This document shows, one piece after another, positions 16,982 to 32,451 of a stretch of 64,000 bases of DNA. Location of the stretch: assembly GCF_947331435.1 (NCBI RefSeq), contig NZ_CAMZOF010000001.1:248001-312000 (forward strand). The letters are read 5' to 3'. The notes beneath the pieces are model-generated. The model worked only from the letters and a program-made list of their open reading frames with translations, made no database searches and was not told the origin of the DNA. Position numbers and translations under genes: made by a program. Position 1 is the stretch's first letter; the number at the start of each line of letters is the position of its first letter. Source of the DNA: Pelagibius sp. Alg239-R121. Lineage in GTDB: Bacteria > Pseudomonadota > Alphaproteobacteria > Kiloniellales > Kiloniellaceae.

Positions 16982-17889
16982 TCGGCGGCCTCCCGCTTTC
17001 GATTGCAGTGATCCGAGTCCGAGCAGACAAACATGCGACCGCCGCGGTCATCGGTGACGACTTCGTCGAGGAAGGTATTTTCCGCGCCACAAAGTTCACA
17101 GGACTGTTCCCATTGCTGGATCTCGAAGGGATGGTCTTCGAAATCCAAGCTATAAACCGCCGTATGTGGTGGAATGGCGTAGATCCGTTTTTCGCGGCCC
17201 GCACCGAACAGCTGCAACGCCGGCATGCGGTGCATTTTCGGATTGTCGAATTTCGGTGTCGGCGAGGGGTCCATGATGTAGTGACTGTTGACCTTGACCG
17301 GATAAGCATAGGTGGTTGCGATGTGCCCATGCGTCGCAATGTCTTCATAAAGTTTGACGTGCATGAGGCCGTATTCACCCAGGGCATGCATCTTGCGCGT
17401 TTCGCTTTCGCGCGGCTCCAGGAAGCGCAAAGGTTCTGGAATCGGCACTTGATAAACCAGGATCTGATCCTCGCTTAGCGGCTTCTCGGGAATGCGATGC
17501 CGGGTCTGGATGATCGAAGCTTCTTCCGTGTGCTCGGTGGTTTCGACTGCGGCGGTGCGCACAAAGAACTGGCGGATGCTGACGGCGTTGGTGGTGTCGT
17601 CAGCGCCCTGATCGATGACTTTCAAAACATCATCAGGGCCCAGAATGCTCGCGGTCACCTGAACGCCGCCGGTGCCCCAGCCGTACGGCATCGGCATCTC
17701 ACGGCTGGCAAAGGGCACCTGATATCCTGGGATCGCAACCGCTTTCAGAATCGCGCGGCGGATCATCCGTTTGGTCTGTTCGTCCAGGTAAGCGAAGTTG
17801 TAGTTGGGATCCGGTCCAATCTTGTCAGCGTGGCCATGCTCGACCGCTTCGCTCTGCGCCGGATTTTTCTGAGCTGACTGCGTCATCAC
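16978..17889 (-). CDS. phnJ: Carbon-phosphorus lyase, radical SAM-type catalytic subunit PhnJ
   Basis: The 303-residue enzyme breaks the C-P bond with a 5'-deoxyadenosyl radical, giving the alkane and 5-phosphoribosyl 1,2-cyclic phosphate. The C-terminal cluster motif is fully kept as C-X2-C-X21-C-X5-C, where three Cys hold the 4Fe-4S cluster and the last is the proposed thiyl radical Cys. The core AIPGYQVPFASREMPMPYGWG-like region near residue 55 is also typical. It lies between phnI and phnK in the operon and is the most diagnostic gene of the pathway. Confidence 0.97.
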   Translation of the reverse strand: MMTQSAQKNPAQSEAVEHGHADKIGPDPNYNFAYLDEQTKRMIRRAILKAVAIPGYQVPFASREMPMPYGWGTGGVQVTASILGPDDVLKVIDQGADDTTNAVSIRQFFVRTAAVETTEHTEEASIIQTRHRIPEKPLSEDQILVYQVPIPEPLRFLEPRESETRKMHALGEYGLMHVKLYEDIATHGHIATTYAYPVKVNSHYIMDPSPTPKFDNPKMHRMPALQLFGAGREKRIYAIPPHTAVYSLDFEDHPFEIQQWEQSCELCGAENTFLDEVVTDDRGGRMFVCSDSDHCNRKREAAE

Positions 17890-17901
17890 TTCACCCTGTC
17901 C

Positions 17902-19044
17902 CTATTCTGCGGCTTCGACGGCTTGAGGGTCTTTTTCACCCAAATCCGCCTCTCGCCGTTCGCGGCGCATCTTGCGCACCAGCTCCAGTTCCGACTGGAA
18001 GTCCACGTAGTGCGGCAGTTTGAGGTGCTCCACGAAGCCGCTGGCTTGAATATTGTCGCTGTGCTCCATGACGAATTCTTCGTCCTGCGCTGGACTGTCC
18101 ACCACTTCCCCTAGTTCGCGTCCCTTCAGAGCACGATCGACCAGAGCCATGGCCATGACCTTGCGCTCACAGTGTCCGAAACTGAGGCCATAGCCGCGCG
18201 TGAATTGCGGCGGCGCTTCTGTGGAACCCTTGAACTGGTTGACCATCTGACATTCGCTGAGGGTCACCTCGCCGATTTCGATGGGAAAACCAAGATCCTC
18301 CGGCACGAATTCGACCGCCACTTCGCCGAGGCGTATCTCGCCGGCGAAGGGGTGGCTGCGGCCATAACCTCGCTGAGTCGAATACCCCAGGGCCAACAGA
18401 AATCCCTCATCACCACGTGCCAGATTCTGCAGCCGGACGTCGCGGTCCACGGGAAAGTTCATGGGCTCGCGGGTCAGATCACCGATGGACTCGGGTTTTT
18501 CCCCAGGCCGCTCTTCCTCAATCAAACCTTCATGCTTAAGAAGATCAACGACGCGCGGCATGGAGTCGTCCAATTGCGCAACCCCATCGGGCAGCTCGGC
18601 AAAATCGGATCCGGAGGTCTCACCTTCGTCCCCTTCTTCCGCGGCCAGCTTGAAATCCAACAGGCGGTGAGTGTAATCGAAGGTCGGCCCCAGAACCTGA
18701 CCGCCGGGAATATCCTTGAAGGTCGCGGAGATCCGGCGCCGGATGCCCATTTTGGCCGTATCGACCGCAGCGGAGTAACCGAAGCGGGGCAAGGTGGTCC
18801 GATAAGCACGGATCAGAAAGATCGCCTCGATCAGATCGCCACGTGCCTGTTTGATGGCAAGCGCTGCCAGTTTGCGGTCGTATAGCGAACCCTCCGTCAT
18901 AACCCGGTCGACCGACAAGCTGAGTTGCTCTTCGATCTGTGCAGTCGAAAGTTCAGGCACGGCAAGGTCGCCCCTGCGCTCTTCCGCAAGAAGCTTGTGC
19001 GCCTCATTGATTGCCGCTTCGCCGCCCTTGACCGCGACATACAT
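17902..19044 (-). CDS. phnI: C-P lyase core subunit PhnI
   Basis: The 380-residue PhnI begins MYVAVKGGEAAINEAHKLL, the typical start, and contains the FDYTHRLLDFKL and GYGRSHPFAGEIR segments of the family. With PhnG, PhnH and PhnL it displaces adenine from MgATP to attach ribose triphosphate to the phosphonate; it also forms the PhnI-PhnJ interface of the core. It is 3 bp after phnH and 12 bp before phnJ. An insert rich in Glu, Asp and Gly near residues 130-160 is a small lineage feature. Confidence 0.96.
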   Translation of the reverse strand: MYVAVKGGEAAINEAHKLLAEERRGDLAVPELSTAQIEEQLSLSVDRVMTEGSLYDRKLAALAIKQARGDLIEAIFLIRAYRTTLPRFGYSAAVDTAKMGIRRRISATFKDIPGGQVLGPTFDYTHRLLDFKLAAEEGDEGETSGSDFAELPDGVAQLDDSMPRVVDLLKHEGLIEEERPGEKPESIGDLTREPMNFPVDRDVRLQNLARGDEGFLLALGYSTQRGYGRSHPFAGEIRLGEVAVEFVPEDLGFPIEIGEVTLSECQMVNQFKGSTEAPPQFTRGYGLSFGHCERKVMAMALVDRALKGRELGEVVDSPAQDEEFVMEHSDNIQASGFVEHLKLPHYVDFQSELELVRKMRRERREADLGEKDPQAVEAAE

Positions 19045-19047
19045 GGC

Positions 19048-19683
19048 TCAGACCTCCACTTGCGTTGTACGAGGCAGCGCCGCAATCCGGTCTTCTGCGC
19101 AGAGAACGATGTCCACACCCTTGGGGAAACGCGCATGATTCTCCTGAACCTGCTGCCAGAAACCGCCAGGAAGACCTTTGCCCTGAATCGTCTGTTTGTT
19201 TTCGATGCCCGGACCGCGCAGAACGACACCACGGCTATCGTCCAGGCGTTCGACCTGGATGAGAAGCGTCGCGGATTTGTCCGGATATTCATCGCTGCCT
19301 TCCGGGAAGGCATCGAGCGACGGCATTTTACAGGGATCGGTGATAATTGCGAATGCCGCATGACCGTGCGCCTCGACAATGGGACAACCACAGTGAAAGC
19401 GGAGATAATCGACCAAAGCCTGTTGCGCAGCGGCAGCAGGGTCCAGCCAGAGGGGCGTATCGAAGTCGAGCAGTGTCAGGGCTGCGGCTGCAGTCGTCTG
19501 CGCCAGAGATGCCGGCACCTCCAGCAATAATTCACAGGGAACTATATGCCCCGGCCGGGACATCGCGCTCAACAGGACCCGGTACATGGCCTGCGACTGC
19601 AAGACAGGGTTATCGAAGCCCACGTTCGTGACCGCAATGCCTTCCGCACCACGGCCGGACGTCTGGCTATCTGTTCCGATCAT
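19048..19683 (-). CDS. phnH: C-P lyase core subunit PhnH
   Basis: The 211-residue PhnH has the family features FDNPVLQSQAMYRVLLSAMSRPG near the start and FPKGVDIVLCAEDRIAALPRTT at the end. It is a structural subunit related to PLP-transferase folds but without catalytic lysine, and is needed for the nucleosidase step. Its ATG shares one base with the phnG stop (TGATG), so translation is coupled. Confidence 0.95.
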   Translation of the reverse strand: MIGTDSQTSGRGAEGIAVTNVGFDNPVLQSQAMYRVLLSAMSRPGHIVPCELLLEVPASLAQTTAAAALTLLDFDTPLWLDPAAAAQQALVDYLRFHCGCPIVEAHGHAAFAIITDPCKMPSLDAFPEGSDEYPDKSATLLIQVERLDDSRGVVLRGPGIENKQTIQGKGLPGGFWQQVQENHARFPKGVDIVLCAEDRIAALPRTTQVEV

Positions 19684-20210
19684 CAGTCTTCCCCTCTGAC
19701 AAGCGTAAAGAAATCGACCTTGGTCGCGGCCGATTTGGCGGAAGCTTGATGACGGCGAGCCTCCAGACGCGCAGCAAGTGGCTTGATTACGGCATCTTCC
19801 AACGCCGGTCGCCGTTCGGAATTCTGTAGCAGCGCATCAAAAAGCGCCGCTAGCTCGGCATGGCGGCGGTTCCGCCCGGCCAAATAACCCTGCCCGGTGT
19901 AACTCTGGTCAGCGCCATTTTCTCCGCCTTCGGTAACCACTGCGCAGCGTGTCACGGTGATTTCACCCAGATTGAAAGGCGCTCCTGTACCGCCCGCCCG
20001 ACCGCGCACCATGACCAGGCCCGTCTCCGGTTTGCGTAACCAGCGCCACTTCGGCTTGTCTTCGAGATCATCCCAGGCGCGAATCAGATCGTCCGGATCT
20101 GATTTCGCCAGTACGGACATCCAGGTGCCTCGTAGGCTGGTCACCGCATCGGACGAGGTCTGACCGGCCTCTTTTTCTGAAGTTGATGCTATATGATTTG
20201 ACATATTCAT
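19683..20210 (-). CDS. phnG: C-P lyase core subunit PhnG
   Basis: The 175-residue PhnG is recognised by TWMSVLAKS near residue 29 (the start of the E. coli protein), by EITVTRCAV, and by GYLAGRNRRHAELAALFDALLQ. About 20 extra N-terminal residues precede the conserved part. Its start lies inside the phnF promoter spacer, so its own promoter must lie farther right, overlapping the phnF leader. First gene of the phnG-H-I-J-K-L-M-HD-DUF1045 transcript. Confidence 0.93.
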   Translation of the reverse strand: MNMSNHIASTSEKEAGQTSSDAVTSLRGTWMSVLAKSDPDDLIRAWDDLEDKPKWRWLRKPETGLVMVRGRAGGTGAPFNLGEITVTRCAVVTEGGENGADQSYTGQGYLAGRNRRHAELAALFDALLQNSERRPALEDAVIKPLAARLEARRHQASAKSAATKVDFFTLVRGED

Positions 20211-20249: not shown

Positions 20250-20285
20250 ATGGGATCCGTAAAGGATCAAAAAATGAAGTTTTGA
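20250..20285 (+). CDS. Short upstream reading frame coupled to phnF
   Basis: An 11-codon frame (MGSVKDQKMKF) has a plausible ribosome site TGAGG 6 bases upstream. Its TGA stop shares its last base with the ATG of phnF (TGATG). This arrangement suits translational coupling and gives phnF, which lacks a good site of its own, a source of ribosomes. No function for the peptide is implied. Confidence 0.4.
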   Translation: MGSVKDQKMKF

Positions 20286-21064
20286 TGACCACGGGCAATG
20301 CCCTCGAGGAAACAGCGCGGAACCTGAGAATAGACGGAAACAATATGATTGAACGTGGAACGGGGATCGCTCTATGGCGCCAGATTGAACAGCAGCTGGC
20401 GGATGACGTCACCTCGGGTAACTTTCCGGAAGGCAGTCGCCTGCCGACGGAACCGGAACTGGCCGAACGTTTTGGAGTCAACCGCCACACCTTGAGGCGG
20501 GCGGTATCCGGATTGGTCGAACAGGGGCTGCTGCGCGTCGAACAGGGTCGCGGCACCTTCGTTCAGGAGAATGTCGTCGACTATCTCATCGGTAAGCGGA
20601 CCCGCTTCAGCGAGATCATCACCAAACAGCACCGCAATCCCGCGGGACGCCTGTTACGGGCATACGAAATCGAGGCCGATCAAAGTGTTGCTTCCGGCCT
20701 GGAAATAAAACCCGGAACAGCTTGCATCCTTTTAAAAACCATCAATGACGTTGACGAGCGGCCGCTATCGGTCTCCTGGAATTACTTCCCTGCCCGACGC
20801 TTCCCCGATCTGATTCCGGTTTATTCAGAAACCCGCTCGGTGACCAAAGCCCTGACCCACCATGGCGCTGGAAACTACACGCGCCGTAGGACCAAGGTCA
20901 CGGCCCGTCTGCCCGATGCGGAAGACGCCAAAATCCTTAAACAACCGGCCAATCGCCCCGTGCTCGTCGTCGAAAGCGTCAATGTCGACGAGACCGGCAA
21001 GCCTGTTCAATTCTGCATTGCCCACTTTATCGCCGACCGCATGCAGATCGTTTTTGAGACTTGA
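20285..21064 (+). CDS. phnF: GntR/HutC-family regulator of the C-P lyase operon
   Basis: The roughly 259-residue protein has an N-terminal GntR winged HTH (about residues 25-95, with SRLPTEPELAERFGVNRHTLRRAVSGL) and a C-terminal UTRA effector domain ending in FIADRMQIVF. PhnF proteins repress phn genes. It is divergent from phnG, and the spacer carries repeated operator-like sites. Start choice is uncertain: ATG 20285 is coupled to an upstream reading frame, while ATG 20345 would begin just before the HTH. Confidence 0.92.
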   Translation: MTTGNALEETARNLRIDGNNMIERGTGIALWRQIEQQLADDVTSGNFPEGSRLPTEPELAERFGVNRHTLRRAVSGLVEQGLLRVEQGRGTFVQENVVDYLIGKRTRFSEIITKQHRNPAGRLLRAYEIEADQSVASGLEIKPGTACILLKTINDVDERPLSVSWNYFPARRFPDLIPVYSETRSVTKALTHHGAGNYTRRRTKVTARLPDAEDAKILKQPANRPVLVVESVNVDETGKPVQFCIAHFIADRMQIVFET

Positions 21065-21440: not shown

Positions 21441-22841
21441 ATGGTGACGATTCCAGACGAATACATGCGGCCAGAAATGATGGCGATTGGAGATTCGCTT
21501 TATCAGGGCGTGCGGTCCCTGACCATGAAGAGTGGCATGATGCAACTCAGCGCGCCGGCGCTTGCAGCCGAGGGACTCGGCATCCGCCACAGGTTTTCCT
21601 GCCCCGACCCGCAGCGCCCGATCATTGTCGACATGGAGAAATGGCTGCGCATGCTGCCTGACATCGGCCGCATCAAAGAGGATATGGCGAAGAACATCGA
21701 TTACTGGTTTAAAACCAAACCTCCATCGTCACCTTCCGGACGCCTGTTGTTCGAGAATATCTCAATCGCGTCGGCCACCATCGCTGACCTTTACACTCAA
21801 ACCTGGCAATCCTCCGACGATTTTCTCAAGACGCTGCCACCTGGTGCCAAGACCAGAATCAAGAAACTCAATCTCGCAGAAATCAAACTCAGCCCGACAA
21901 TTCAGGCCCTCAACGCACGCTTCACGCTGAACCCTTCGGGTCAGGCAGAGTACAGGAATCTCAGTCAGGTCGGCATGGTCGCAGCGCGCAAGCCAAAACG
22001 CCTGCTGGTCAACATCGGCAGTAACAACGGTCTCTGGGAAATCGCCTTTGAATGCAATCCGAATGCGCGGATGAAATTCAAGACCGAACTGAAAAAACTG
22101 GCGCAAGCATTAAACGCCCTGCCGCCCGAAGTCGAACATATCTATTTCAACAATCTCGGTCTACCCAGCACCGTCCCGAATTTAATGCCGGTACCTGAGC
22201 AGGTCGAATGGGACGAGACGAACAAGCCGGGCAAGGGCAAGTACTACGACACTTACGAAAACCGCTTCGGGTTTGGCTATGGCTGTATGACCGGTAAACA
22301 GTTGAAGAAGCTTGATGAGCATATCGCGGAGGTGAACAAGGAAGCCGCACAGATCCTGAAATCCGCCTTCGATAAACCCTCGAGGCTTCACTTCGTCGAC
22401 ATCGCAAAACTGCTTCTTAGTTATGATTCAAAACATCAGAAACGCACCGACAAAAATGTCGTCAATCTGGCCAACGGAAAAACGATTACCAATGTGATGG
22501 TCAATGCCAGCCCGTTTGGAAATTTTCGGCGCGGCGGCACACAGGGGCTCGATGGCATGCACGCAAGCGTGGTGGGGTATGGCCTGATGGCACAGCAGGT
22601 GCTCGATTGTATTGAAAAGGCCGAACCTGGACTCAAGCCAAGCAAGATCGATCTCAATGCCGCGTTCGATCGCGATAAACTACTCAACGACTTGCCTCCA
22701 GTGTGGAACGCAGGCCTTTGGCTGTGGCGGGACATTCGCCGTGCTCAAGCCGAGAAAAAACCTGAACCGGTGGAAATATCCGACGACGAAACAATGCGGG
22801 ATGTCATGAGATTCTCCAGTCAGGCGGTCGGACGCCCCTAG
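21441..22841 (+). CDS. SGNH/GDSL-type hydrolase, unknown substrate
   Basis: This 466-residue protein has SGNH family blocks: block I GDSLYQGV with nucleophile Ser19, block III NIGSNNG with Asn195/Asn196, and block V DGMH with Asp371 and His374 followed by SVVGYGLMA. The catalytic triad is therefore present. There is no signal peptide, and it is longer than most GDSL esterases, with a large middle insertion. ATG 21441 is preceded by GAGGGA; the upstream in-frame start adds nine unsupported residues. It lies alone between phnF and a second GntR gene. Substrate class (ester, thioester or acetyl group) cannot be told. Confidence 0.75.
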   Translation: MVTIPDEYMRPEMMAIGDSLYQGVRSLTMKSGMMQLSAPALAAEGLGIRHRFSCPDPQRPIIVDMEKWLRMLPDIGRIKEDMAKNIDYWFKTKPPSSPSGRLLFENISIASATIADLYTQTWQSSDDFLKTLPPGAKTRIKKLNLAEIKLSPTIQALNARFTLNPSGQAEYRNLSQVGMVAARKPKRLLVNIGSNNGLWEIAFECNPNARMKFKTELKKLAQALNALPPEVEHIYFNNLGLPSTVPNLMPVPEQVEWDETNKPGKGKYYDTYENRFGFGYGCMTGKQLKKLDEHIAEVNKEAAQILKSAFDKPSRLHFVDIAKLLLSYDSKHQKRTDKNVVNLANGKTITNVMVNASPFGNFRRGGTQGLDGMHASVVGYGLMAQQVLDCIEKAEPGLKPSKIDLNAAFDRDKLLNDLPPVWNAGLWLWRDIRRAQAEKKPEPVEISDDETMRDVMRFSSQAVGRP

Positions 22842-22899: not shown

Positions 22900-22921
22900 T
22901 GCTATAATGTTATATCAACAT
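22900..22921 (+). promoter_or_regulatory. Extended -10 promoter with overlapping palindrome
   Basis: TGCTATAAT (22900-22908) is a consensus extended -10 element. The inverted repeat ATGTT-N5-AACAT (22907-22921) overlaps its downstream edge, where transcription should start. It precedes the GntR gene, so it is a likely self-operator. Confidence 0.5.
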
Positions 22922-22994
22922 ATCATTAGCTCAATAAATTTAAGCGACCCACCATGCTGTGCAAGTTTCGATTGGCGGCACAACAGAGAACGGC

Positions 22995-23879
22995 ATGAAC
23001 CAGGCCCAGCAAAACCGCTCGCAGCAGGGCTCCACTGTAGATGGTACGCAGGTGCCAGCGGGTGATCTTGCGCATCCACAGTTGCAACTCGGCGCGCTGG
23101 GCCTCAAGACTCCGCTCTATCATCAGATCTATCTCATCCTGAAAAATCAGATTACCGACGGCATCTACCGCACCGATGCCCGCCTGCCGAGCGAGCAGGA
23201 TCTGACCGAACGTTTTGGCGTTTCACGCATCACCGCGAAACGCGCCATGGACGAACTGGCCGCTGAAGGACTTGTGGTTCGTGAACGCGCCCGTGGCACA
23301 CGGGTCATCTACGAGCCACCCTCAAGCCCGATTGTCTCTTCGGTTGAAGGTCTGTTGGAAAATCTGATCGCCATGGGACTGGAAACCAAGGCGCAACTTT
23401 TGACGTTCGAGTATCTGCAAGCTTCGGAAGCTATCGCGCAGGCCTTGGAGATCGAGCTTGGGGATGAAATTCAGCGAGCCGTCCGTGTGCGCTACATTGA
23501 CGACGCGCCGTTCTCCCACCTAACCACCTATGTCCCCGGGAAGATCGGTCGTCAGTTCGACGCCGACGAGCTCTCTAGCACATCGCTGTTGTCGCTTCTG
23601 GAGCGCTGTGGCGTGCAGGTGGAGTCCGCGGACCAGACCATTTCGGCGACACTCGCGGACGCGGTCGTGGCCCAGCACCTCGGCGTCGACGCCGGTGCCG
23701 CCCTGATGAAAATCACCCGTGTGGTCCGCGACCAGAATGCTTCCCCGGTCGAATTTATCACCGCACTCTATAGGCCGGACCGCTACCAATATCGCATGGC
23801 GCTGTCACGTGTGCAGGGAGAAGTACAGAATCGCTGGACGCCGGAGGCCGAAAAACCTGACGAAACCCAAAGCCAATAG
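22995..23879 (+). CDS. GntR/HutC-family regulator of the adjacent catabolic operon
   Basis: This 294-residue protein (from ATG 22995; an in-frame GTG/ATG at 22959 adds 12 residues) has a GntR winged HTH (ARLPSEQDLTERFGVSRITAKRAMDEL) and a UTRA domain with the usual end FITALYRPDRYQY. About 30 low-complexity residues rich in Gln precede the HTH. It heads the same-strand operon running to 32451 and is separated from it by 98 bp, so it probably senses the substrate or an intermediate of that pathway. A palindrome overlaps its own promoter. Confidence 0.9.
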   Translation: MNQAQQNRSQQGSTVDGTQVPAGDLAHPQLQLGALGLKTPLYHQIYLILKNQITDGIYRTDARLPSEQDLTERFGVSRITAKRAMDELAAEGLVVRERARGTRVIYEPPSSPIVSSVEGLLENLIAMGLETKAQLLTFEYLQASEAIAQALEIELGDEIQRAVRVRYIDDAPFSHLTTYVPGKIGRQFDADELSSTSLLSLLERCGVQVESADQTISATLADAVVAQHLGVDAGAALMKITRVVRDQNASPVEFITALYRPDRYQYRMALSRVQGEVQNRWTPEAEKPDETQSQ

Positions 23880-23977
23880 CGAAAGTACCGATGAAAACGA
23901 AGGCACTCGATATACGCCCACGGTCAGGATGCAATGCGTAGCAACGATCTAAAAAAAGTCGATCCGCGGATGGCACG

Positions 23978-25267
23978 ATGACAGAAGCACCTCAGACACT
24001 GGCGGAAAAGATCATTGCGAATGCCGCCGGTCGCGAATCAGTGAAAGCCGGCGAGGTCGTCACCTGCACTGTTGATCTCGCGATGATCCACGATAGCGGC
24101 GGACCGCGCCGGGTCAAACCGATGCTGGAACGCCTTGGGGTGAAGGTCTGGGATCCCACGAAAATCGTATTGGTGTCAGATCACTATGTCCCCGCCTTCG
24201 ATGCGCAGAGCGCCGCTATCCTGAAGCTCACGCGCGACTGGGCACGCGACCAGGAGATCGAAGGCTTCTACGACCAACAGGGCATCTGCCACGTGGTCTT
24301 GCCCGAACGTGGACATCTGTCACCCGGTATGTTCGTGGTTGGTGGGGATAGCCATTCCCCGACAGGCGGTGCGTTTGGAGCCTACATGTTCGGTATCGGC
24401 GCAACCGATATGGCGGGCGTTCTGGCAACCGGCGAAACCTGGATCAAGGTGCCCGCTACTATACTGCTGCGCTGGAACGGAGCTCTGTGCGACGGAGTCA
24501 CCGCGAAAGACATGATGCTGAAGCTCTGTGCTTCACTGGGCATGGATGGCGGTGACTATCAATCCATCGAGTACACCGGCTCGACGCTTTCCGGCCTGTC
24601 GATGCAAGAGCGCATGACCCTGAGCAACATGGCGGCGGAGCTGGGAGCGCAAACAGGATTGATTGCGCCGGATGCTGTCACTGCAGAGGCGATTGAAGAA
24701 ACCGGCGGCGAAGCCGGAGATTGGGCGCACTGGTCGAGTGATGCGGGCGCCGGATACCGCAAGGTTCATGAATTCGAGGCGTCGGAGCTGTCTCCTCAGA
24801 TCGCGGCACCACACAGTCCCGCCAACGCAGGATCGGTCGAAGATGTTGGAAAGGTCGCCGTCGACCAATGTTACATCGGCGCCTGCACCGGCGCGAAGCT
24901 GGTCGATCTGCATGCCGCCGCGCGCGTGCTCAAAGGCCGCAAAGTGGCAGCCAGCACCCGGCTGATGATCGCGCCGGCCTCAACCCGGACGACGGCAGCG
25001 GCGGCAGCCGATGGTTCTCTCGCGGCACTCACCGAGGCAGGCGCAATCCTGTTGCCTTCCGGCTGCGGCGCCTGCGCTGGATATGGGGCCGGCGTCCTGG
25101 CAGAAGGCGAAGTCTGCATGGCCTCAACCGCCCGCAACTTCAAAGGCCGGATGGGATCGCGGGAATCATTCGTTTATTTAGGCTCGCCCTATAGCGTTGC
25201 AGCGGCTGCGGTCATGGGCCGTATCGCCGATCCACGACCGTTGCTGGCGGAGAATAAAATATCATGA
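23978..25267 (+). CDS. Aconitase-superfamily hydro-lyase large subunit (LeuC/DmdA-like)
   Basis: The 429-residue protein is the large subunit of a LeuCD-type dehydratase. The 4Fe-4S ligands are Cys303 (YIGACTG), Cys363 and Cys366 (GCGAC), with the C-X59-C-X2-C spacing of the family. Other conserved parts are DHYVPAFD and GGDSHSPTGGAFG. The consensus IGSCTNGR of true isopropylmalate isomerases is changed to IGACTGAK, which suggests a substrate other than isopropylmalate. Adjacent small subunit and dimethylmalate-lyase-like genes point to hydration of a substituted maleate, as with dimethylmaleate hydratase DmdAB of nicotinate fermenters. Substrate inferred. Confidence 0.85.
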   Translation: MTEAPQTLAEKIIANAAGRESVKAGEVVTCTVDLAMIHDSGGPRRVKPMLERLGVKVWDPTKIVLVSDHYVPAFDAQSAAILKLTRDWARDQEIEGFYDQQGICHVVLPERGHLSPGMFVVGGDSHSPTGGAFGAYMFGIGATDMAGVLATGETWIKVPATILLRWNGALCDGVTAKDMMLKLCASLGMDGGDYQSIEYTGSTLSGLSMQERMTLSNMAAELGAQTGLIAPDAVTAEAIEETGGEAGDWAHWSSDAGAGYRKVHEFEASELSPQIAAPHSPANAGSVEDVGKVAVDQCYIGACTGAKLVDLHAAARVLKGRKVAASTRLMIAPASTRTTAAAAADGSLAALTEAGAILLPSGCGACAGYGAGVLAEGEVCMASTARNFKGRMGSRESFVYLGSPYSVAAAAVMGRIADPRPLLAENKIS

Positions 25268-25767
25268 GCCATGAACTAGCGGCCGGACGGGTCTGGAAAT
25301 ACGGTGACGGCGTCGACACCGACCTCTTAGCGCCCGGCACCTACATGAAAAGCTCTATGGAAGATTTGGCAAGCCACTGTTTGGAAGCCATCGACCCCGC
25401 TTTCGCCGGGCAGGTCAAAAACGGCGATATCCTGGTCGCAGGCAAAAATTTTGGCATCGGATCAAGTCGCGAGCAGGCGGCAGAGGTACTTCGCATGCTC
25501 GGTGTCACGGCGGTGATCGCAAAATCCTTTGGCGGCATCTTCTACCGCAATGCCTTTAATCTAGGTCTCTACGCCCTGGTTTCCAACGATGTCGATCGCA
25601 TCGAAAAAGATCACAAGGTTGCAATCGATCCCTTGACCGGCCGCATAATCAACGAAACCACAGGCGACAGGCTGGCCTGTGAACAGGTCCCCGAACACCT
25701 CGCGGCGATCGTTACGGCGGGTGGACTGATTCCCCATCTCGAAGAAAAATTGAGGAAAACTCTATGA
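25264..25767 (+). CDS. Aconitase-superfamily hydro-lyase small subunit (LeuD/DmdB-like)
   Basis: The 167-residue swivelling domain protein has the small-subunit motif GKNFGIGSSREQAAEVL and the segment SFGGIFYRNAFNLGL. It overlaps the large-subunit gene by ATGA and the next gene by four bases, so all three are coupled. Together with the large subunit it forms the active dehydratase/hydratase. Confidence 0.88.
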   Translation: MSHELAAGRVWKYGDGVDTDLLAPGTYMKSSMEDLASHCLEAIDPAFAGQVKNGDILVAGKNFGIGSSREQAAEVLRMLGVTAVIAKSFGGIFYRNAFNLGLYALVSNDVDRIEKDHKVAIDPLTGRIINETTGDRLACEQVPEHLAAIVTAGGLIPHLEEKLRKTL

Positions 25768-26633
25768 CGCCGCAAAAACGGCTCAGGCAGCAACTCTCGG
25801 ACGACGGAATCGTCGTCGCGCCTGGTATCTACGATGCTTTCGGCGCCATGATGGCAGAGCGCGCCGGCTTCGAGACACTCTATCTTTCCGGAGCCTCGAT
25901 CTCCTATACCCAGTTGGGCAGCCCGGACATCGGCCTCGTAGGGATGGATGAAGTTGCCGGTGTGGTGGGGCGGGTCCGCGAGCGGGTCGATCTGCCGATC
26001 GTGGTCGACGGCGACGCCGGGTTCGGCAACGCGCTGAACGTGCAACGCACGATCGGGGTCTTTGAGCGCAACGGTGCCAGCGCAATCCAACTGGAGGATC
26101 AGCAGCTCCCGAAGCGCTGCGGCCATCTGGACGGCAAGAACCTTGTTTCGATCGGCGAGATGAGCGGCAAGATCAAAGCCGCCACCGACAGCCGCGCAGA
26201 CGCTGACACCATCATAATCGCCCGTACCGATGCCGTTGCAGTGGAGGGTTTTGAAGCCGCGCTGGAACGCAGCGAGGCTTATCTGGAAGCAGGTGCGGAC
26301 ATGTTGTTCGTCGAGGCCGTAAAGACCGAACAGGAAATGCGCCGGGTTGTCGCACAATTTGCCGGCCGGCTGCCCCTGATGGTCAATATGGTCGAAGGTG
26401 GGAAGACACCCGTTATGCCCGCCAAGCACCTGGCGAGGATTGGCTTCAAGCTAGTGATCTTCCCGGGTGGGCTAGCCCGAGCTATCGCTAAGACCATGAG
26501 CGCCTACTTCGAAAGCCTCCAGCAGGAAGGAACGACGGCACCCTTTATGGACGATATGCTGAACTTCACCCAGCTCAACGATCTGCTTGGCACCCAGAAG
26601 ATACTGGACGGCAGTCAGAAGTACGAGGATTGA
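25764..26633 (+). CDS. Isocitrate lyase/PEP mutase-family lyase (2,3-dimethylmalate lyase-like)
   Basis: This 289-residue TIM-barrel enzyme has the metal site VDGDAGFG (Asp82, Asp84), the acidic segment QLEDQ, and the catalytic Cys119 in PKRCGH. The Cys marks carbon-carbon lyases rather than PEP mutases, and it is shorter than isocitrate lyase, like methylisocitrate and dimethylmalate lyases. Phosphonopyruvate hydrolase belongs to the same family, but the neighbouring hydratase genes favour cleavage of an alkyl-malate to pyruvate and a carboxylate. The exact substrate is inferred. Confidence 0.85.
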   Translation: MTPQKRLRQQLSDDGIVVAPGIYDAFGAMMAERAGFETLYLSGASISYTQLGSPDIGLVGMDEVAGVVGRVRERVDLPIVVDGDAGFGNALNVQRTIGVFERNGASAIQLEDQQLPKRCGHLDGKNLVSIGEMSGKIKAATDSRADADTIIIARTDAVAVEGFEAALERSEAYLEAGADMLFVEAVKTEQEMRRVVAQFAGRLPLMVNMVEGGKTPVMPAKHLARIGFKLVIFPGGLARAIAKTMSAYFESLQQEGTTAPFMDDMLNFTQLNDLLGTQKILDGSQKYED

Positions 26634-26637
26634 CCCG

Positions 26638-28377
26638 ATGACCACGATCGATCCCGTAACGCTCTCGGTCCTGAAGGGCCGTCTGGAGCAGATCGCCGAC
26701 GAGATGGACGCAACGCTGTTCCGCTCCGCGTTCAATCCGATCATCGCCGAGGCACACGACGCCAGTCATGGTCTTTATGACGCAAAAAGCGGTGATACTC
26801 TGATCCAGGGCAAGAGCGGCCTGCCGGTCTTCGTTGGTGCCATGTCCTTTGCGGTGAAGGCGGTGATCGACAAGGCAGCCGCGTCAGGAGACGTCCCCCA
26901 GGATGGCGACGTTTACATCTTCAACGACCCCTACGACGGCGGCACGCATCTCTCGGATTTCAAGTTAGTGCGGCCATTCTATCGCAACGGCGATCTTTTC
27001 TGCTATCTGGCCTCAGTCGGGCATTGGCACGACGTCGGCGGCAACGTTCCGGGCAACTACAATCCGGTGGCCACAGAGTGCTTTCAGGAAGGCATGCTGA
27101 TCCCACCGGTCAAGCTCTACGACAAGGGTGAATTGCGACAAGACATCATAACGATCCTGCAAGCCAACTCCCGTTTGCCGGGCAGCCTGTACGGCGACCT
27201 CAACGGACAGCTCAATGCTCTTGATCTCGGTGTACAGCGGTTGCATAAGCTGCTCGACGAATATGGCGAGACTGCCATCTCTGAAACCTTGGTCGAGTTG
27301 CGCAGACGGGCCGCACAATTGATGTCGAGTTTCATCTCGGAACTGCCCGAGGGCCGCTATTCAGCGGAAGACTGGCTGGACAACGACGGCATCACGGACG
27401 AGCCCTTGAAAATCGCCCTGGACATGGACATCGGGGGTGGGCGCATGACTCTCGATTTTTCCCGCAGCTCACTAGCCTGCGCCGGTCCGGTCAATATCGC
27501 CCGCTCGACGACGGTGGCCTCCTGCTACGTCGCACTGAAACACATCTTCAAGGACGTCCCCGCCAACGCCGGCGTACTGGATCCTATCGACTTCGTGATT
27601 CCGGAAGACAGCCTGCTGAGTGTCAAAGCGCCCAAGCCGGTTGGGGGTTACACGGAAACCATCCTGCGTATTATCGACGTGATCTTTGTCGCCCTGTCTC
27701 AGGCGAACCCCGACATCACAAATGGCTGTGCCTACGGCACCATCAATGCGCTGTCGCTTGCGGGTCACCGGAAAGATGGGCGCCGTTGGGTGATGTTCTC
27801 CTTCTTCGGTGGCGGCCACGGCGGCCATCCGAAAGGCGATGGACTCAACCACGGCAACGCGCCTATTTCTACGGCAACCATTCCTCCGCTTGAAATTCTG
27901 GAGGCGGCCTATCCGGTGCGCTTTACCCAATGGGCCCTGCGGCCGGACAGTGGAGGAGTGGGCGCGCATCGCGGCGGTTGCGGTGCAATTTATGAGCTTG
28001 AGTTACTGGAGCAGAACGCCGAAGTGTTCCTCTTCGGTGAGCGGGGCAGGTATGCCCCGCCTGGAGTGGCCGGTGGATCATCGGGCGCCAAAAATCTTTT
28101 CAGCTACCAGCAGGACGATGGCGATCATACGCCGCCGATGGCGTCCAAGATGGTAGGGATCAAGCTGACCAAAGGACAACGCCTGCATCTGGAAACACCC
28201 GGCGGTGGTGGCTACGGCCCGGCATTGGAACGGAATCTTGCCGAGATCGGCGAGGACGTTCGGCTGGGCTATATCACCAGAGAATCGGCCCGAAAAGACT
28301 ATGCCTGTGTCGTCGATGACCAAGGATCACCGGATCTGCAGGCGACCGAGGCCTTGCGCCGGGAGATCGCCTCGTGA
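26638..28377 (+). CDS. hyuB: Hydantoinase B / acetone carboxylase alpha-type subunit
   Basis: This 579-residue HyuB protein carries the conserved FNDPYDGGTHLSDFKLVRPF segment, SVGHWHDVGG, and DFSRSSLACAGPVN. Family members work with HyuA to hydrolyse hydantoins, oxoproline or lactams with ATP, or to carboxylate ketones. I start at ATG 26638, 4 bases after the preceding stop; an earlier in-frame start lies within the upstream gene. The gene overlaps hyuA by GTGA. Substrate unknown. Confidence 0.92.
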   Translation: MTTIDPVTLSVLKGRLEQIADEMDATLFRSAFNPIIAEAHDASHGLYDAKSGDTLIQGKSGLPVFVGAMSFAVKAVIDKAAASGDVPQDGDVYIFNDPYDGGTHLSDFKLVRPFYRNGDLFCYLASVGHWHDVGGNVPGNYNPVATECFQEGMLIPPVKLYDKGELRQDIITILQANSRLPGSLYGDLNGQLNALDLGVQRLHKLLDEYGETAISETLVELRRRAAQLMSSFISELPEGRYSAEDWLDNDGITDEPLKIALDMDIGGGRMTLDFSRSSLACAGPVNIARSTTVASCYVALKHIFKDVPANAGVLDPIDFVIPEDSLLSVKAPKPVGGYTETILRIIDVIFVALSQANPDITNGCAYGTINALSLAGHRKDGRRWVMFSFFGGGHGGHPKGDGLNHGNAPISTATIPPLEILEAAYPVRFTQWALRPDSGGVGAHRGGCGAIYELELLEQNAEVFLFGERGRYAPPGVAGGSSGAKNLFSYQQDDGDHTPPMASKMVGIKLTKGQRLHLETPGGGGYGPALERNLAEIGEDVRLGYITRESARKDYACVVDDQGSPDLQATEALRREIAS

Positions 28378-30449
28378 GCGAACAAGAGCGCAAGACCGTC
28401 ATCGGTGTCGACGTCGGCGGAACCTATACGGATGTGTTCTTTCTCAATGAGGCCGACGGGGCCTGCGATGTCGCAAAGGTGCCCACAACACGCGGCGATC
28501 AATCTCAAGGTATCCGCAGCGGTATTCAGCAGCGGCTCGAAGAACTTGGCAGCATCTCGACTATCGTCCACGGCACGACGGTCGGCACCAATGCTCTGCT
28601 GGAACGCAAAGGCGCGCGCTGTGGCGTGATCACCACGAAGGGCTTTCGCGACGTGCTTGAAATGCGCCGCCGCGACCGGCCTCAGACATGGGGTCTCTGG
28701 GGGAACTTCGAGCCGATCGTGCCGCGCGATCTGCGTGTCGAGGTCAGCGAACGGGTTCTTGCAGACGGCACTCTGCTGGAACACGTCGATCAGAGTGAAG
28801 TCCAGGCTGCCGCGCGTAATTTGCTTGAGACGGGCGCAGAATCGCTCTGCATCTTCTTCATCAACTCCTACGCCAACGACGAAAATGAGCGCACTGCCGT
28901 ACAGGCCGTCCGCGATATCTGGCCCAGCGAGCACGTTACCGCGTCATCCGAAATTCTGCCGGAGGTACGGGAGTTCGAGCGCGCTTCGACCGCATCATTG
29001 AACGCGTACCTGCAGCCACCGGTCGGTAGCTATCTCGAGCGCCTTGAAGCGGGCCTTCGCGACGGGGGTTTCGGCGGACAGGTTCTTATCGTGCAGTCAA
29101 ACGGTGGCGTGATGGCGGTGGAAACAGCACAACGCTTTCCGGTCCGTACGGCACTTTCCGGGCCGGCAGCGGGCGTCATCGCGGCGGCACATATTGCGGG
29201 CTCGGCAGGTTTTCCCAATGTCATTACTTGCGATATGGGCGGGACCAGCTTCGATGTTTCGCTTATCGCCGACGGCAAGAGCGCACTCTTTCCGCAGACT
29301 TCGATCGATTTCGGCATGGTGATCCGCACGCCGATGATCGAGATCACCACTATTGGCGCCGGTGGCGGCTCCATCGCCTGGGTCGATCGCGGTGGGCTGC
29401 TCCAGGTCGGTCCTGAAAGCGCGGGATCGGACCCAGGACCGGCTTGCTATGGCCTGGGCAACGACCGGCCGACAGTGACGGACGCCAACGTGGTCATGGG
29501 CCGAATCAACGCAGACCGGCCGATCGGCGGCAAGCTTGAACGGCTCAACGTGGAGGCCTCCAAAGCGGCGATCCTGAAACATGTCGCCGAGCCGCTCGGC
29601 CTCCATGTGATGGCGGCCGCGGAAGCAATTATCCGCGTCGCCAATGCTAAAATGGCCGGCGCCATCCGGTTGGTATCCGTTGAACGTGGGCACGACCCGA
29701 AGAGCTTTTCGGCCATGCCTTTCGGTGGCGGTGGCGCCCTGCATACCGGCGCCCTGATCAAAGACGTCGGGCTGAAGAGCGCGCTGGTCCCGCGCTATCC
29801 AGGTGTGACCAGCGCACTGGGCTGTGTCATCGCTGATATGCGCCATGACCGGGTGATGACGATCAATCAGATGCTGGACGATCTGGATGTCCCGGCGCTG
29901 GACCGGCAGATGAGCGTAACGGCCGCGGCGGGACAAAAGTTGCTTGAAGAAGCTGACATTGCCTTTGAAGGTGTCGTCTACGAATTCGAACTGGATATGC
30001 ATTACCTCGGGCAAACGCATACCGTCACTGTTCCGCTGCCGCTCAGTTTCAATGAGGGCGCGACAGGCGTCACGCCAGAGATCATCCGTGATGCCTTCGA
30101 GATAACTTACCGGCAAACCTACGGCCGCCTGCTCGATAGCATCCCTATCCGGATCATGAACCTGCGGGTCACAGTGGTGGGCCGGCGACCTAAGTTTGAC
30201 CTGTCGATCCTCGCCCCCGCGACGGAGAAAGGCATGGAGATACAGGCAAACACTACCCGCCAGATCTGGGCGGAAGGCCGCTGGCATGACGCGTCGGTTT
30301 TCGAGCGTCTCACGTTGCCCGAAGGCGCAATCGTGTCTGGACCAGCCATTCTGGAACAACCGGATACGACGATCTTTATCGACCCTGACCTGAAAGGCGA
30401 GGTCGACCGCTTTGGCAATCTTTTGATAGCGCGAAAGGACGAGGTGTGA
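28374..30449 (+). CDS. hyuA: Hydantoinase A / 5-oxoprolinase N-terminal type subunit
   Basis: This 691-residue ATP-dependent subunit starts with VIGVDVGGTYTDVF, the ASKHA phosphate-binding loop, followed by HGTTVGTNALLERKGA and DMGGTSFDVSLI. It phosphorylates or activates the cyclic amide bond that HyuB opens. Note that hyuB precedes hyuA here. The GTG start overlaps the hyuB stop. Its place between the malate-lyase-like gene and the isochorismatase-like gene ties ring opening to the hydratase/lyase steps. Confidence 0.92.
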   Translation: MSEQERKTVIGVDVGGTYTDVFFLNEADGACDVAKVPTTRGDQSQGIRSGIQQRLEELGSISTIVHGTTVGTNALLERKGARCGVITTKGFRDVLEMRRRDRPQTWGLWGNFEPIVPRDLRVEVSERVLADGTLLEHVDQSEVQAAARNLLETGAESLCIFFINSYANDENERTAVQAVRDIWPSEHVTASSEILPEVREFERASTASLNAYLQPPVGSYLERLEAGLRDGGFGGQVLIVQSNGGVMAVETAQRFPVRTALSGPAAGVIAAAHIAGSAGFPNVITCDMGGTSFDVSLIADGKSALFPQTSIDFGMVIRTPMIEITTIGAGGGSIAWVDRGGLLQVGPESAGSDPGPACYGLGNDRPTVTDANVVMGRINADRPIGGKLERLNVEASKAAILKHVAEPLGLHVMAAAEAIIRVANAKMAGAIRLVSVERGHDPKSFSAMPFGGGGALHTGALIKDVGLKSALVPRYPGVTSALGCVIADMRHDRVMTINQMLDDLDVPALDRQMSVTAAAGQKLLEEADIAFEGVVYEFELDMHYLGQTHTVTVPLPLSFNEGATGVTPEIIRDAFEITYRQTYGRLLDSIPIRIMNLRVTVVGRRPKFDLSILAPATEKGMEIQANTTRQIWAEGRWHDASVFERLTLPEGAIVSGPAILEQPDTTIFIDPDLKGEVDRFGNLLIARKDEV

Positions 30450-30450
30450 C

Positions 30451-31053
30451 ATGAGCAGCTACGGCAGCGAGCAAACGGCGTTGTTGCTGGTCGATATGCA
30501 GAATGACTTTCTGCATCCCGATGGCGCTTATGCCCGCGGCGGTGCAAAGTCCGAAGCCATCGCCGCTTTGTCCTCACGCTTGAAACCGGTTGCCGACGCC
30601 ATGCGTGCCAGCGGCGGCTGGATTGTCTCGACACACTTCACGCTGGTGCCTGATAAAGGTGGGGCGCCTTTCATTTCACCTCACCTGAAGCAGCTGCGGC
30701 CTTTTCTGACGACGGGCGACTTCGCCCCCGGCAGTTTCGGTCAGGCCTTGATCGATGATCTGGCGCCCGCCGACATTTCTGTGGAGAAAGTTGCCTACTC
30801 CGCCTTCTACATGAGCCGCCTCGAATGGGTGCTCGGGCGCGCGGGGATCAAGCGCCTGATCTTCGCCGGTATCGTGACCAACGGCGGAGTTGCCTCCACT
30901 CTGCGCGATGCGCACGTGCGGGACTATCACACCACCCTCTTGACCGACGGCTGTGCAGCCTTTGACCCCCAGGTGCACGAAACCGCCATCGCCAGCATGA
31001 AGGGCATCGCCGAACTCACGAGCTGTGCCAATCTTCTGACCAGCCTGAGTTAG
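30451..31053 (+). CDS. Isochorismatase-fold hydrolase lacking the nucleophilic Cys
   Basis: This 200-residue protein has the isochorismatase-like fold with Asp15 (LLVDMQNDF) and Lys113 (VEKVAYSAF). At the position of the catalytic Cys in amidases of this fold (TNxCV), it has Gly146 (TNGGVAS). Amidases such as nicotinamidase and N-carbamoylsarcosine amidase need that Cys. The vinyl-ether hydrolase PhzD also lacks it, so this enzyme may hydrolyse an enol ether or hydrate rather than an amide. It starts one base after the hyuA stop and is part of the same operon. Confidence 0.85.
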   Translation: MSSYGSEQTALLLVDMQNDFLHPDGAYARGGAKSEAIAALSSRLKPVADAMRASGGWIVSTHFTLVPDKGGAPFISPHLKQLRPFLTTGDFAPGSFGQALIDDLAPADISVEKVAYSAFYMSRLEWVLGRAGIKRLIFAGIVTNGGVASTLRDAHVRDYHTTLLTDGCAAFDPQVHETAIASMKGIAELTSCANLLTSLS

Positions 31054-31059
31054 CAATCG

Positions 31060-32451
31060 GTGACGATACTCTCCGCAAAAGACGTCGACTTCCCGATCAC
31101 TGTCTCCGTGGCAATTGTCGGCGCAGGCGCCTGCGGCCTGACGGCGGCCTTGGCGGCCGGCGATGCCGGTGCCGGAGTGCTGATTGTAGAACGCGATCCG
31201 ATGCCGGCAGGTTCAACCGCACTGTCCTCCGGGCTAATCCCCGCTGCGGGCACACGGTTTCAGTCAGCCCTCAGGATAGATGACACTGCGGCTCTCATGG
31301 CCGATGACATCCAAGCCAAAGCGAGGGGTGACGCGGATCCCGACATCGTGGACTGTGTTGCCAGGGAAGCGGGACCCAGCCTTGAATGGCTTGCCGACCG
31401 CCATGGATTGGAATGGGTAGTACTCGACGACTTTCTGTATCCCGGTCATTCGCGGCATCGTATGCATGCGGTTCCGGAGAAAACCGGCTCAGCTTTGATC
31501 GGGCGCCTGTTGGGCGCGGCCCAAGCCGCGGGCATCGACATTCTTTCGAATGCGCAGGTTGTCGCACTCTACGCAGATGAAACCAACGGCCAGATAGCAG
31601 GCCTGCGTATCGAACGCCCGAAAGGCGAGACGGAAGATATCGGTTGTGAGGCGGTGATCCTGGCCTGCAACGGCTACGGCGGCGATCCGGAGATGGTCCG
31701 CGCACATATTCCCGAGATGGCGGAGGCCGATTACTTCGGGCACACAGGAAACCAGGGAGATGCAGTTAAATGGGGGATGGCGCTGGGCGCAGCTGCGCAA
31801 CATCTTAGCGCCTGTCAGGGTCATGGCTCGGTCGCGACACCGCACGGCATCCTCATCACCTGGGCCCTGATGATGGAGGGCGGCATACAGGTGAACTTAG
31901 AGGGCAACCGTTTCTCGAACGAACACCAAGGATATTCCGAACAGGCGGTCGATGTCTTGAAACAGCCCAGCGGAACTGTCTGGAACATCTTCGATGCGCG
32001 CCTGCACGAACTGGGTCTGTCATTCGACGACTACCGCAATGCGGAGAAGCAAGGCGCAGTTCGGAGCGCCCAATCCCTGCAGGAACTCTCACGAATCACC
32101 GGCCTGCCGCTCGAAGCACTTAAAGCCTCGGTTAGAGAAACGGCTGATGAAAAAACCGATCGGTTCGGCCGCGATTTCTCGAAAACCTCCGCACTCGCAT
32201 CACCCTATTATGCAGTTAAGGTCACCGGTGCGCTTTTTCATACTCAGGGCGGCTTGTGCATCGATCGAAATGCCCGCGTTCTGCGCGAAAATACCACCCC
32301 CATGCCGAACCTCTTCGCCGGCGGCGGCGCAGCCTGCGGTGTTTCGGGGCCCAGAATCGACGGTTACCTTTCTGGTAACGGTCTTTTGACGGCTGTCACT
32401 TTGGGGCGGATCGCCGGACAAAAAGCGGCAGAACTTGTGTCGCAAAACTAA
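31060..32451 (+). CDS. FAD-dependent oxidoreductase, fumarate reductase/ketosteroid dehydrogenase type
   Basis: This 463-residue flavoprotein has the dinucleotide motif VAIVGAGACGLTAALAAGDAG and a C-terminal FAD segment ending GNGLLTAVTLGRIAG. Two conserved Arg/His-rich segments in the middle resemble the FAD_binding_2 family, which reduces or forms carbon-carbon double bonds next to carbonyls. It lacks heme or signal sequences, so it is cytoplasmic. It begins with GTG 6 bases after the preceding stop. In the inferred pathway it could interconvert a succinate and a maleate/fumarate type intermediate. Confidence 0.85.
   Translation: MTILSAKDVDFPITVSVAIVGAGACGLTAALAAGDAGAGVLIVERDPMPAGSTALSSGLIPAAGTRFQSALRIDDTAALMADDIQAKARGDADPDIVDCVAREAGPSLEWLADRHGLEWVVLDDFLYPGHSRHRMHAVPEKTGSALIGRLLGAAQAAGIDILSNAQVVALYADETNGQIAGLRIERPKGETEDIGCEAVILACNGYGGDPEMVRAHIPEMAEADYFGHTGNQGDAVKWGMALGAAAQHLSACQGHGSVATPHGILITWALMMEGGIQVNLEGNRFSNEHQGYSEQAVDVLKQPSGTVWNIFDARLHELGLSFDDYRNAEKQGAVRSAQSLQELSRITGLPLEALKASVRETADEKTDRFGRDFSKTSALASPYYAVKVTGALFHTQGGLCIDRNARVLRENTTPMPNLFAGGGAACGVSGPRIDGYLSGNGLLTAVTLGRIAGQKAAELVSQN

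Follow-up and report, generated by a model that had tools for sequence, protein, structure and literature searches.

In the anaerobic fermentation of nicotinate, a 2,3-dimethylmaleate hydratase (DmdAB) is followed by a 2,3-dimethylmalate lyase. A comparable pair, a LeuCD-type hydratase followed by a lyase of the isocitrate lyase (ICL) family that would act on a substituted maleate to give pyruvate, is encoded in a likely operon of Pelagibius sp. Alg239-R121 (genome of 8.0 Mb in 48 contigs), which occupies positions 22959-32451 of the 64,000-nucleotide stretch of contig NZ_CAMZOF010000001.1 analysed here (the window) and whose eight genes all lie on the + strand, free of stops. The likeness has limits: here an imide would be the source of the maleate, which is proposed to bear a carboxyethyl group, glutarate would replace propionate, and the other nicotinate genes are not among the eight. 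The 2-methylcitrate cycle, with its aconitase-type step and PrpB, is also close in lyase chemistry and in most active-site residues, but the operon lyase falls in a separate clade, there is no methylcitrate synthase, and the proposed substrate has one extra methylene.

For the upper part of the pathway, the nearest parallels are the routes in which an imidase and then an amidase convert an imide to a half-amide and a diacid (HxnM/HxnN of Aspergillus, PMC9304392; the maleamate amidases Ami and NicF). Proteins exchanged into related loci resemble these enzymes, whereas in the window both steps are assigned to an ATP-dependent HyuAB pair and a Cys-less protein. HyuAB itself shares both subunits, the ATP motif and the metal ligands with CapAB, N-methylhydantoinase and 5-oxoprolinase; unlike theirs, its proposed substrate is a substituted maleimide, and it misses the caprolactamase cut-offs. 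Finally, a flavoprotein resembles flavocytochrome c fumarate reductase and the 3-ketosteroid dehydrogenases in its flavin adenine dinucleotide (FAD) and catalytic domains and in one Arg and two His of presumed function, but differs from fumarate reductase at several positions.

We think that the operon serves the catabolism of a cyclic imide, a role that is well supported, and we incline, without great confidence, to the view that this imide is most likely hematinic acid (3-methyl-4-(2-carboxyethyl)maleimide) and, via the flavoprotein, its dihydro form. That the substrate belongs to the imides is far more certain than which imide it is, hematinic acid being our best inference. In the proposed pathway the flavoprotein would oxidise the succinimide to the maleimide, HyuA/HyuB would open the imide to an alkylmaleamate at the expense of ATP, and the Cys-less isochorismatase-fold enzyme would free ammonia to leave a substituted maleate; the role of the Cys would probably fall to the adjacent carboxylate of the substrate. 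LeuC/LeuD would then hydrate this maleate to 2-methylhomoisocitrate, the lyase would cleave the latter to pyruvate and glutarate, and glutarate could reach crotonyl-CoA via a CoA-transferase and a glutaryl-CoA dehydrogenase encoded elsewhere in the genome.

The exchangeable, probably ring-opening block

Related loci were gathered by a scan of species genomes with the lyase as query (94 relatives confirmed, 80 loci kept), from plasmids (9 lyase loci fetched among 30 listed of 221 records and, in a second set, 7 among 30 listed of 68 records, two without annotation) and from the window's class, where a lyase match at E 1e-80 or better was present in 46 of 385 genomes, our own counted, and loci were fetched from the 45 others. 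The 92 loci counted below have a best lyase match at least 49% identical to the window protein, and the 41 controls fall below 49%. Copies or near copies (L138, L159, L171, L172), own-genome loci, E. coli references and the short loci L107-L135 were dropped before the count, and L002 was left out of the controls, among which L103 and L104 came from a CE4 query (hence CE4 in 2/41); bacterial-type LeuC occurs in 4/41 control loci. Identity thresholds were 55% for Hyu, 50% for CE4 and CoA-transferase, 60% for the dehydrogenase and 45% for the flavoprotein; absence of a gene means absence within the fetched stretch, and the counts treat loci as independent of kinship.

The comparison of these loci reveals that the middle of the operon is exchanged as a block. 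Locus L149 has the order GntR regulator, solute-binding protein, LeuC, LeuD, lyase, Cys amidase, CE4a, CE4b, flavoprotein; L141 has the same order but with HyuB, HyuA and the Cys-less protein as its block, and so has the window, without the transporter. L164 repeats the arrangement of L149, with no flavoprotein in the stretch. Among the 92 loci, 39 carry Hyu, 15 carry CE4 and none carries both (Fisher p 0.0001, uncorrected for kinship), and each ring-opener label requires at least 7 changes on the starred branches of the lyase tree, the labels being set by hand and loci on short stretches being possibly mislabelled as "other". An isochorismatase-fold protein with its Cys is present in 11 of the 15 CE4 loci.

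The CE4 proteins have the PuuE-type fold. In the Burkholderia plantarii locus L095, CE4a matches 1z7a, PuuE allantoinase (116 bits), and 3qbu (56 bits), while both CE4 proteins of L026 fall below the PuuE equivalog cut-off; the imidase HxnM shares 64% identity with a P. putida homologue of cyclic imide hydrolase, its nearest structure is 3qbu, and PuuE is related to 3qbu (PMC9304392). The best solved match of the L095 Cys amidase is 4l07 (119 bits), the maleamate amidase Ami of Pseudomonas putida S16. In L016, L025 and L044, a member of the allantoinase/hydantoinase superfamily that stays below the equivalog cut-offs lies at most two genes from LeuC and may be a third kind of ring opener. Since the Hyu block is swapped for an imidase-like CE4 pair and a maleamate-amidase-like Cys enzyme, the simplest common denominator to which the sequences point is the conversion of a cyclic imide to a maleamate and then to a maleate that would be acceptable to a LeuCD-type hydratase. 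The initial annotation had proposed this order of steps, from an imide through an acid amide, a substituted maleate and a malate to pyruvate plus a carboxylate, and the exchange favours it.

HyuB (26638-28377, +; Pfam Hydantoinase_B), the metal-binding subunit, has D41, H104, D107 and H129 aligned with the metal ligands of caprolactamase CapB, as these are given in PMC8453981. HyuA (28374-30449, +; Pfam Hydant_A_N and Hydantoinase_A), the ATP-binding subunit of the same predicted cyclic amide/imide hydrolase, has the DxGGTxTD motif, and its nearest solved chains are N-methylhydantoinase and 6yra_A (labelled 5-oxoprolinase). The ATP motif and the ligands together place the pair in the ATP-dependent lactamase/hydantoinase family, outside the CapA and CapB equivalogs (524 and 306 bits, cut-offs 1000). 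Caprolactam hydrolysis is unfavourable (PMC8453981), and an ATP-driven opening would suit a ring that closes easily.

The isochorismatase-fold protein (30451-31053, +), our putative alkylmaleamate amidohydrolase, has Gly146 aligned with the nucleophilic Cys of RutB, as expected from the first description of this gene as a non-Cys hydrolase. Gly stands at this position in 38/38 copies of the window type, of which 37 come from loci that contain Hyu, and Cys stands there in 11/11 copies of the other type, all of them with CE4. The initial annotation had not foreseen that Gly is fixed in the Hyu-linked copies seen. Asp15 and Lys113 are invariant in 13 sequences, leaving the Asp-Lys-Cys triad of Cys amidases incomplete. 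Because the copies examined have Gly where the nucleophile would stand, an ordinary Cys amidase was rejected for this gene. Its predicted structure (mean predicted local distance difference test score, pLDDT, of 76.8) is closest to the Cys amidases RutB and BiuH; further down, maleamate amidases (ranks 42-44 and 48) are intermixed with the isochorismatases AngB (41) and VibB (47), so that the fold alone hardly decides its role. In maleamic acids the neighbouring carboxyl cleaves the amide, in a manner dependent on substitution (PMC3913492), and the Cys may therefore be dispensable in an alkylmaleamate amidohydrolase, the substrate carboxylate substituting for it, if the analogy extends to alkylmaleamates.

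The flavoprotein (31060-32451, +; FAD_binding_2), which would interconvert succinimide and maleimide, has flavocytochrome c fumarate reductase as its nearest solved relative (query 14-462 aligned over the FAD and catalytic domains). One Arg is kept in 35/35 matches that cover its position and another is replaced by Tyr in 34/34, and the Arg pair of fumarate reductase is thus incomplete, a feature that the initial annotation had not foreseen; we take the kept Arg to be catalytic and the lost one to bind the fumarate carboxylate. Two His align with His of fumarate reductase, presumably in the active site, while one Glu and one Arg of that enzyme, which we assume to form its proton relay, are not kept. 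Tyr at the position of the lost Arg is a feature of the ketosteroid dehydrogenases and would suit a neutral carbonyl, such as that of an imide.

Hydratase, lyase and the likely product

LeuC (23978-25267, +), the large aconitase-family subunit by Pfam and NCBIfam and the proposed substituted-maleate hydratase, reaches three broad NCBIfam subfamily models (PRK00402, hacA_fam and IPMI_arch) and misses the leuC equivalog (234.8 bits, cut-off 560.25), while LeuD (25264-25767, +), the small subunit, is above the cut-off of the LeuD/DmdB subfamily and misses the leuD equivalog (48 bits, cut-off 116.25). Operon LeuC is 33% identical to E. coli LeuC. The genome encodes two further, separate LeuCD pairs; their LeuC and LeuD share 66% and 51% identity with the E. 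coli proteins in the first, which is leucine-type, and 52% and 41% in the other. Leucine biosynthesis was rejected for the operon LeuCD on the basis of these cut-offs and of the separate leucine-type pair. LeuC has Cys 298, 363 and 366, to which we ascribe an Fe-S role. A loop position of LeuD is Lys or Arg in 57/64 matches (His in 5, Glu in 1, Val in 1); homoaconitase uses Arg at the same position, and a basic residue there would suit an extra carboxylate.

The lyase (25764-26633, +; PEP_mutase/ICL, from phosphoenolpyruvate mutase and ICL), for which we propose a malate-type cleavage to pyruvate and glutarate, keeps the Lys, Cys, Gly and His of the K-x-C-G-H motif and the metal-site Asp/Glu in 96/96 aligned relatives (duplicates included), as members of this superfamily do; its catalytic Cys, C119, which the initial annotation had already recognised, is among them. 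It is 39% identical to E. coli PrpB, and its score against the prpB equivalog of NCBIfam (299 bits) is below the cut-off of 354.4. In a FastTree tree of 122 rows (after 10 were removed), rooted on E. coli PrpB and with that protein and the own-genome paralogue L002 as the only reference lyases, dimethylmalate lyase being left out, it belongs to a clade of 91 rows with a support of 99, several branches away from E. coli PrpB and without L002; many branches inside the clade are weakly supported. A methylcitrate-cycle PrpB was rejected on cut-off and tree. The phylogenetic check proposed at the outset, whether LeuCD and lyase group with ordinary leucine and methylcitrate enzymes, thus came out in favour of a distinct set, with the leucine pair elsewhere in the genome and the lyase clade apart from PrpB. 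Three further positions are Phe in 96/96, Pro in 95/96 and, where PrpB has Leu, Ile in 96/96; we take them to form the methyl pocket of PrpB, whose presumed catalytic residues are also kept. Among solved relatives, methylisocitrate lyases (up to 202 bits) score above the 2,3-dimethylmalate lyase 3fa3 (165 bits).

What the lyase releases besides pyruvate is suggested by genes linked to related loci. After the imidase-type cluster of B. plantarii L095 come genes for a porin, electron transfer flavoprotein (ETF), an acyl-CoA dehydrogenase with 735 bits to a solved glutaryl-CoA dehydrogenase, and a CaiB/BaiF CoA-transferase. The best match of this transferase is an unnamed CaiB/BaiF protein (406 bits), followed by 9br7, a succinate-hydroxymethylglutarate CoA-transferase (363 bits) that we take to be the glutarate-activating SUGCT. 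In L024 a gene that diverges from LeuC has 596 bits to the solved glutaryl-CoA dehydrogenase. Dehydrogenases at least 60% identical to the L095 copy occur in 10/92 loci (L020, L024, L026, L029, L032, L033, L039, L095, L179, L180) and in 0/41 controls; six of the ten loci are imidase-type, four have no opener in the stretch and none is Hyu-type, and by our reading of the tree they represent four lineages. CoA-transferases at the threshold of at least 50% occur in 4/92 loci (L022, L038, L095, L158), with weaker matches (33-44%) in L033, L039, L041, L098, L157, L161 and L165 uncounted; in L158 the gene is part of a Hyu operon, where it is flanked by a bacterial-type LeuC and the Cys-less gene. 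The Pelagibius genome has a glutaryl-CoA dehydrogenase (74% identical) and a CoA-transferase (56% identical), both away from the operon. The linkage of a glutaryl-CoA dehydrogenase and a glutarate-type CoA-transferase therefore makes glutarate the likely carboxylate product of the lyase.

Hematinic acid and the competing candidate substrates

If a PrpB-like lyase yields glutarate, its acid must carry a carboxyethyl group, and the other substituent is most simply a methyl, because PrpB yields pyruvate and the residues that we assume to line its methyl pocket are kept or conservatively changed. The imide that matches pyruvate plus glutarate would then be hematinic acid. Sequence and comparison show which genes are present, their conserved synteny, the replacement of Hyu by imidase-like and Cys-amidase genes, the glutarate genes linked in related loci, and that lyase and hydratase are distinct. 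We infer from the sequences each of the reactions, the methyl group (pyruvate over glyoxylate), the direction of the flavoprotein, and the use of the same substrate by Hyu-type and imidase-type loci. Heme degradation by ChuS is reported to give hematinic acid (PMC8131568, PMC11442138), which is also reported as an end product of chlorophyll in senescent leaves, sediments and fossil leaves (PMC7318184, PMC12860425). No paper on the bacterial catabolism of hematinic acid was found in the literature searched, which leaves out most subscription journals, and the accessible part of PMC8669743 holds nothing on it. The earlier suggestion of tetrapyrrole fragments as substrates thus stands in outline and becomes specific through the linked dehydrogenase and CoA-transferase genes, while 2,3-dimethylmalate is no longer the best guess for the substrate of the lyase.

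Several observations weigh against this reading. The enrichment of the dehydrogenase is modest (Fisher p 0.03 before any kinship correction); it is found in 0/39 Hyu-type loci, for which the link to glutarate consists of one CoA-transferase and orthology, and the glutarate genes are unlinked to the operon in close relatives of the window. A Cys-less amidase would be unusual, and the arguments from the Lys of LeuD and the Tyr of the flavoprotein depend on the roles that we assume for these residues. The flavoprotein is present in 34/92 loci. No gene in the window links the operon to the breakdown of heme or chlorophyll; upstream, it is bordered by genes of carbon-phosphorus (C-P) lyase. Loci L100 (CE4a 88% identical), L101 and L106 have neither LeuCD nor a close lyase with their CE4 pair, beside which a distant HyuAB pair stands in L101. 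Neither Hyu nor CE4 is in the stretch in 23 of the 64 loci of at least 15 kb; Tistrella L093 has the lyase, the flavoprotein and PrpD genes and neither opener in 19 kb, and L096 and L099, among the nine plasmid loci fetched by lyase, are without such a cluster. For these last reasons, the lower half of the pathway (hydratase and lyase) may also serve other acids.

The alternative that survives best, which we nevertheless consider unlikely, is that the substrates are simple dialkylmaleimides or dialkylsuccinimides without the side-chain acid, such as dimethyl- or methylethylmaleimide, and that, much as nicotinate fermentation ends, the products are pyruvate and either propionate or butyrate. 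The logic of ring opening, hydration and cleavage would be identical, 3fa3 is among the solved relatives of the lyase, and methylethylmaleimide is listed as a product of heme and chlorophyll (PMC7318184). However, the genes linked downstream are a glutaryl-CoA dehydrogenase and a glutarate-type CoA-transferase, even if the dehydrogenase never occurs with Hyu, and methylisocitrate lyases outscore 3fa3. The basic residue in the LeuD loop, in the role that we assume for it, also suits an acid with an extra carboxylate.

We give still less credit to an imide without the methyl, (2-carboxyethyl)maleimide, which would pass through homoaconitate and homoisocitrate to glyoxylate and glutarate. Such a route would accommodate both the hacA_fam match of LeuC and the linked glutarate genes, but in the PrpB-like lyase the Phe and Pro that presumably face the methyl in PrpB are retained, and we know of no natural source of this imide.

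About equally improbable, in our opinion, is the opening of a lactam or hydantoin by HyuAB, with the Cys-less protein hydrolysing an enamine or enol ether in the manner of true isochorismatases. The latter function without a Cys, and AngB and VibB do appear beside the maleamate amidases among the fold matches. Known relatives of HyuAB act on lactams and hydantoins (PMC8453981). Yet the fold search ranks the Cys amidases RutB and BiuH first, a hydantoin or lactam, once opened, would give LeuCD no maleate-type acid directly, and the block is exchanged for imidase-like CE4 and a maleamate-amidase-like Cys enzyme with no change in gene order. Lastly, a chance or ordinary cluster of leucine-type LeuCD and methylcitrate-cycle PrpB beside a hydantoinase, although all the families are common and LeuC reaches the broad IPMI_arch model, is very improbable in view of the gene set conserved in many genera, the separate leucine-type LeuCD, the lyase clade apart from PrpB and the lack of a citrate synthase among the eight genes.

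Distribution, neighbouring genes and meaning

The initial annotation had recognised a regulator and seven packed enzyme genes at 22900-32451, which is borne out by Pfam and NCBIfam; its "mostly 4-bp overlaps" hold for three of the six junctions between enzyme genes, the other three being gaps of 4, 1 and 6 base pairs (bp). The regulator, of the GntR/UTRA (HutC) type (22959-23879, +; Pfam GntR and UTRA), has its first possible start at GTG 22959, the true start maybe lying further in, and its end is 98 bp from LeuC. Promoter-like matches in the operon region number 3, against a mean of 3.1 in shuffled sequences, which is nothing above chance.

A conserved neighbourhood in other genomes, which had been suggested as a check, was found. 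The order LeuC, LeuD, lyase, HyuB, HyuA, isochorismatase fold is kept in other Alphaproteobacteria: in Kiloniellaceae (L005-L007, L006 being Denitrobaculum tricleocarpae R148), in metagenome-assembled genomes (MAGs) of Rhodospirillales/Rhodospirillaceae (L008-L011, L014), in Rhodobacterales-type loci (L015, L021, L031) and in Allorhizobium (L043). The flavoprotein comes next in L005-L007, L015, L021, L031 and L043, and not in L008-L011, and a related regulator (54-74% identical) precedes LeuC in L005-L007, L014, L146, L147 and L164. Just upstream of the operon in L015, L021, L031 and L043 there is a branched-chain amino acid-type solute-binding protein (by Pfam for L015) with four genes of transporter size; on plasmids of Neorhizobium, Roseomonas, Tistrella and Azospirillum the annotation shows a five-gene transporter of this type next to the lyase, and a TRAP transporter lies alongside the operon in L010. 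Close HyuB (E 1e-200 or better) is rare, with 8 of 398 genomes across the phylum, our own counted. The recurrence of the same genes together in many genomes is more than chance.

Some neighbours deserve mention in their own right. Upstream of the operon, 14161-20210 (-) and 20285-21064 (+) hold the C-P lyase genes phnG, phnH, phnI and phnJ, accompanied by genes for an ABC-type ATPase and an Amidohydro_3 protein and for another GntR/UTRA regulator; L005-L007 likewise have phnG-J next to the operon. A 466-residue protein without Pfam match at 1e-8 (21441-22841, +) adjoins the operon regulator in the same three loci. Downstream, an MmgE/PrpD-family gene (38124-39497, +) follows a mandelate-racemase/enolase-type gene and is also near the operon in L006 and L007. 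A PrpD relative lies directly ahead of the lyase in L034, L091, L092 and L093, and L093 and L091 have an aspartate/glutamate racemase-family pair and a tautomerase-like gene near the lyase and flavoprotein. Loci L017 (8179-8895), L025 and L044, with the LeuCD-lyase set, have a heme-oxygenase-like (Haem_oxygenas_2/TenA) gene near UbiD-family and other genes. In L041, whose record is titled as a Thermoplasmata archaeon MAG, lyase, LeuC, LeuD, a Cys isochorismatase-fold protein and a CoA-transferase share one contig of 9.5 kb. On a Salipiger abyssi plasmid (L101, 8234-16390), the CE4 pair, an isochorismatase-family gene, amidases and the distant HyuAB stand together. In L102 (6071-14236) and L103 (4607-13655) the CE4 pair and an isochorismatase-family gene occur with bacterial-type LeuCD, a CaiB/BaiF CoA-transferase and genes like hydroxymethylglutaryl-CoA (HMG-CoA) lyase, perhaps as a parallel route for other imides, for example a simpler maleimide.

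In its widest form, which we consider somewhat less likely than not, our proposal is a dedicated and widespread prokaryotic route that would draw on the ring of heme and chlorophyll that bears the propionate and regain its carbon and nitrogen. Hematinic acid and its dihydro form would be desaturated, opened by an ATP-driven imidase, deamidated by a Cys-less enzyme that uses the carboxylate of the substrate, hydrated, and cleaved to pyruvate and glutarate, with the opening half exchanged many times for an unrelated set of imidase and amidase. Heme and chlorophyll are synthesised and broken down on an enormous scale. If the proposal is true, the module supplies the genes, the products and a simple test for the use of hematinic acid by microbes, and new names would be needed for proteins whose current annotation is 3-isopropylmalate dehydratase, cysteine hydrolase, oxaloacetate decarboxylase or hydantoinase.

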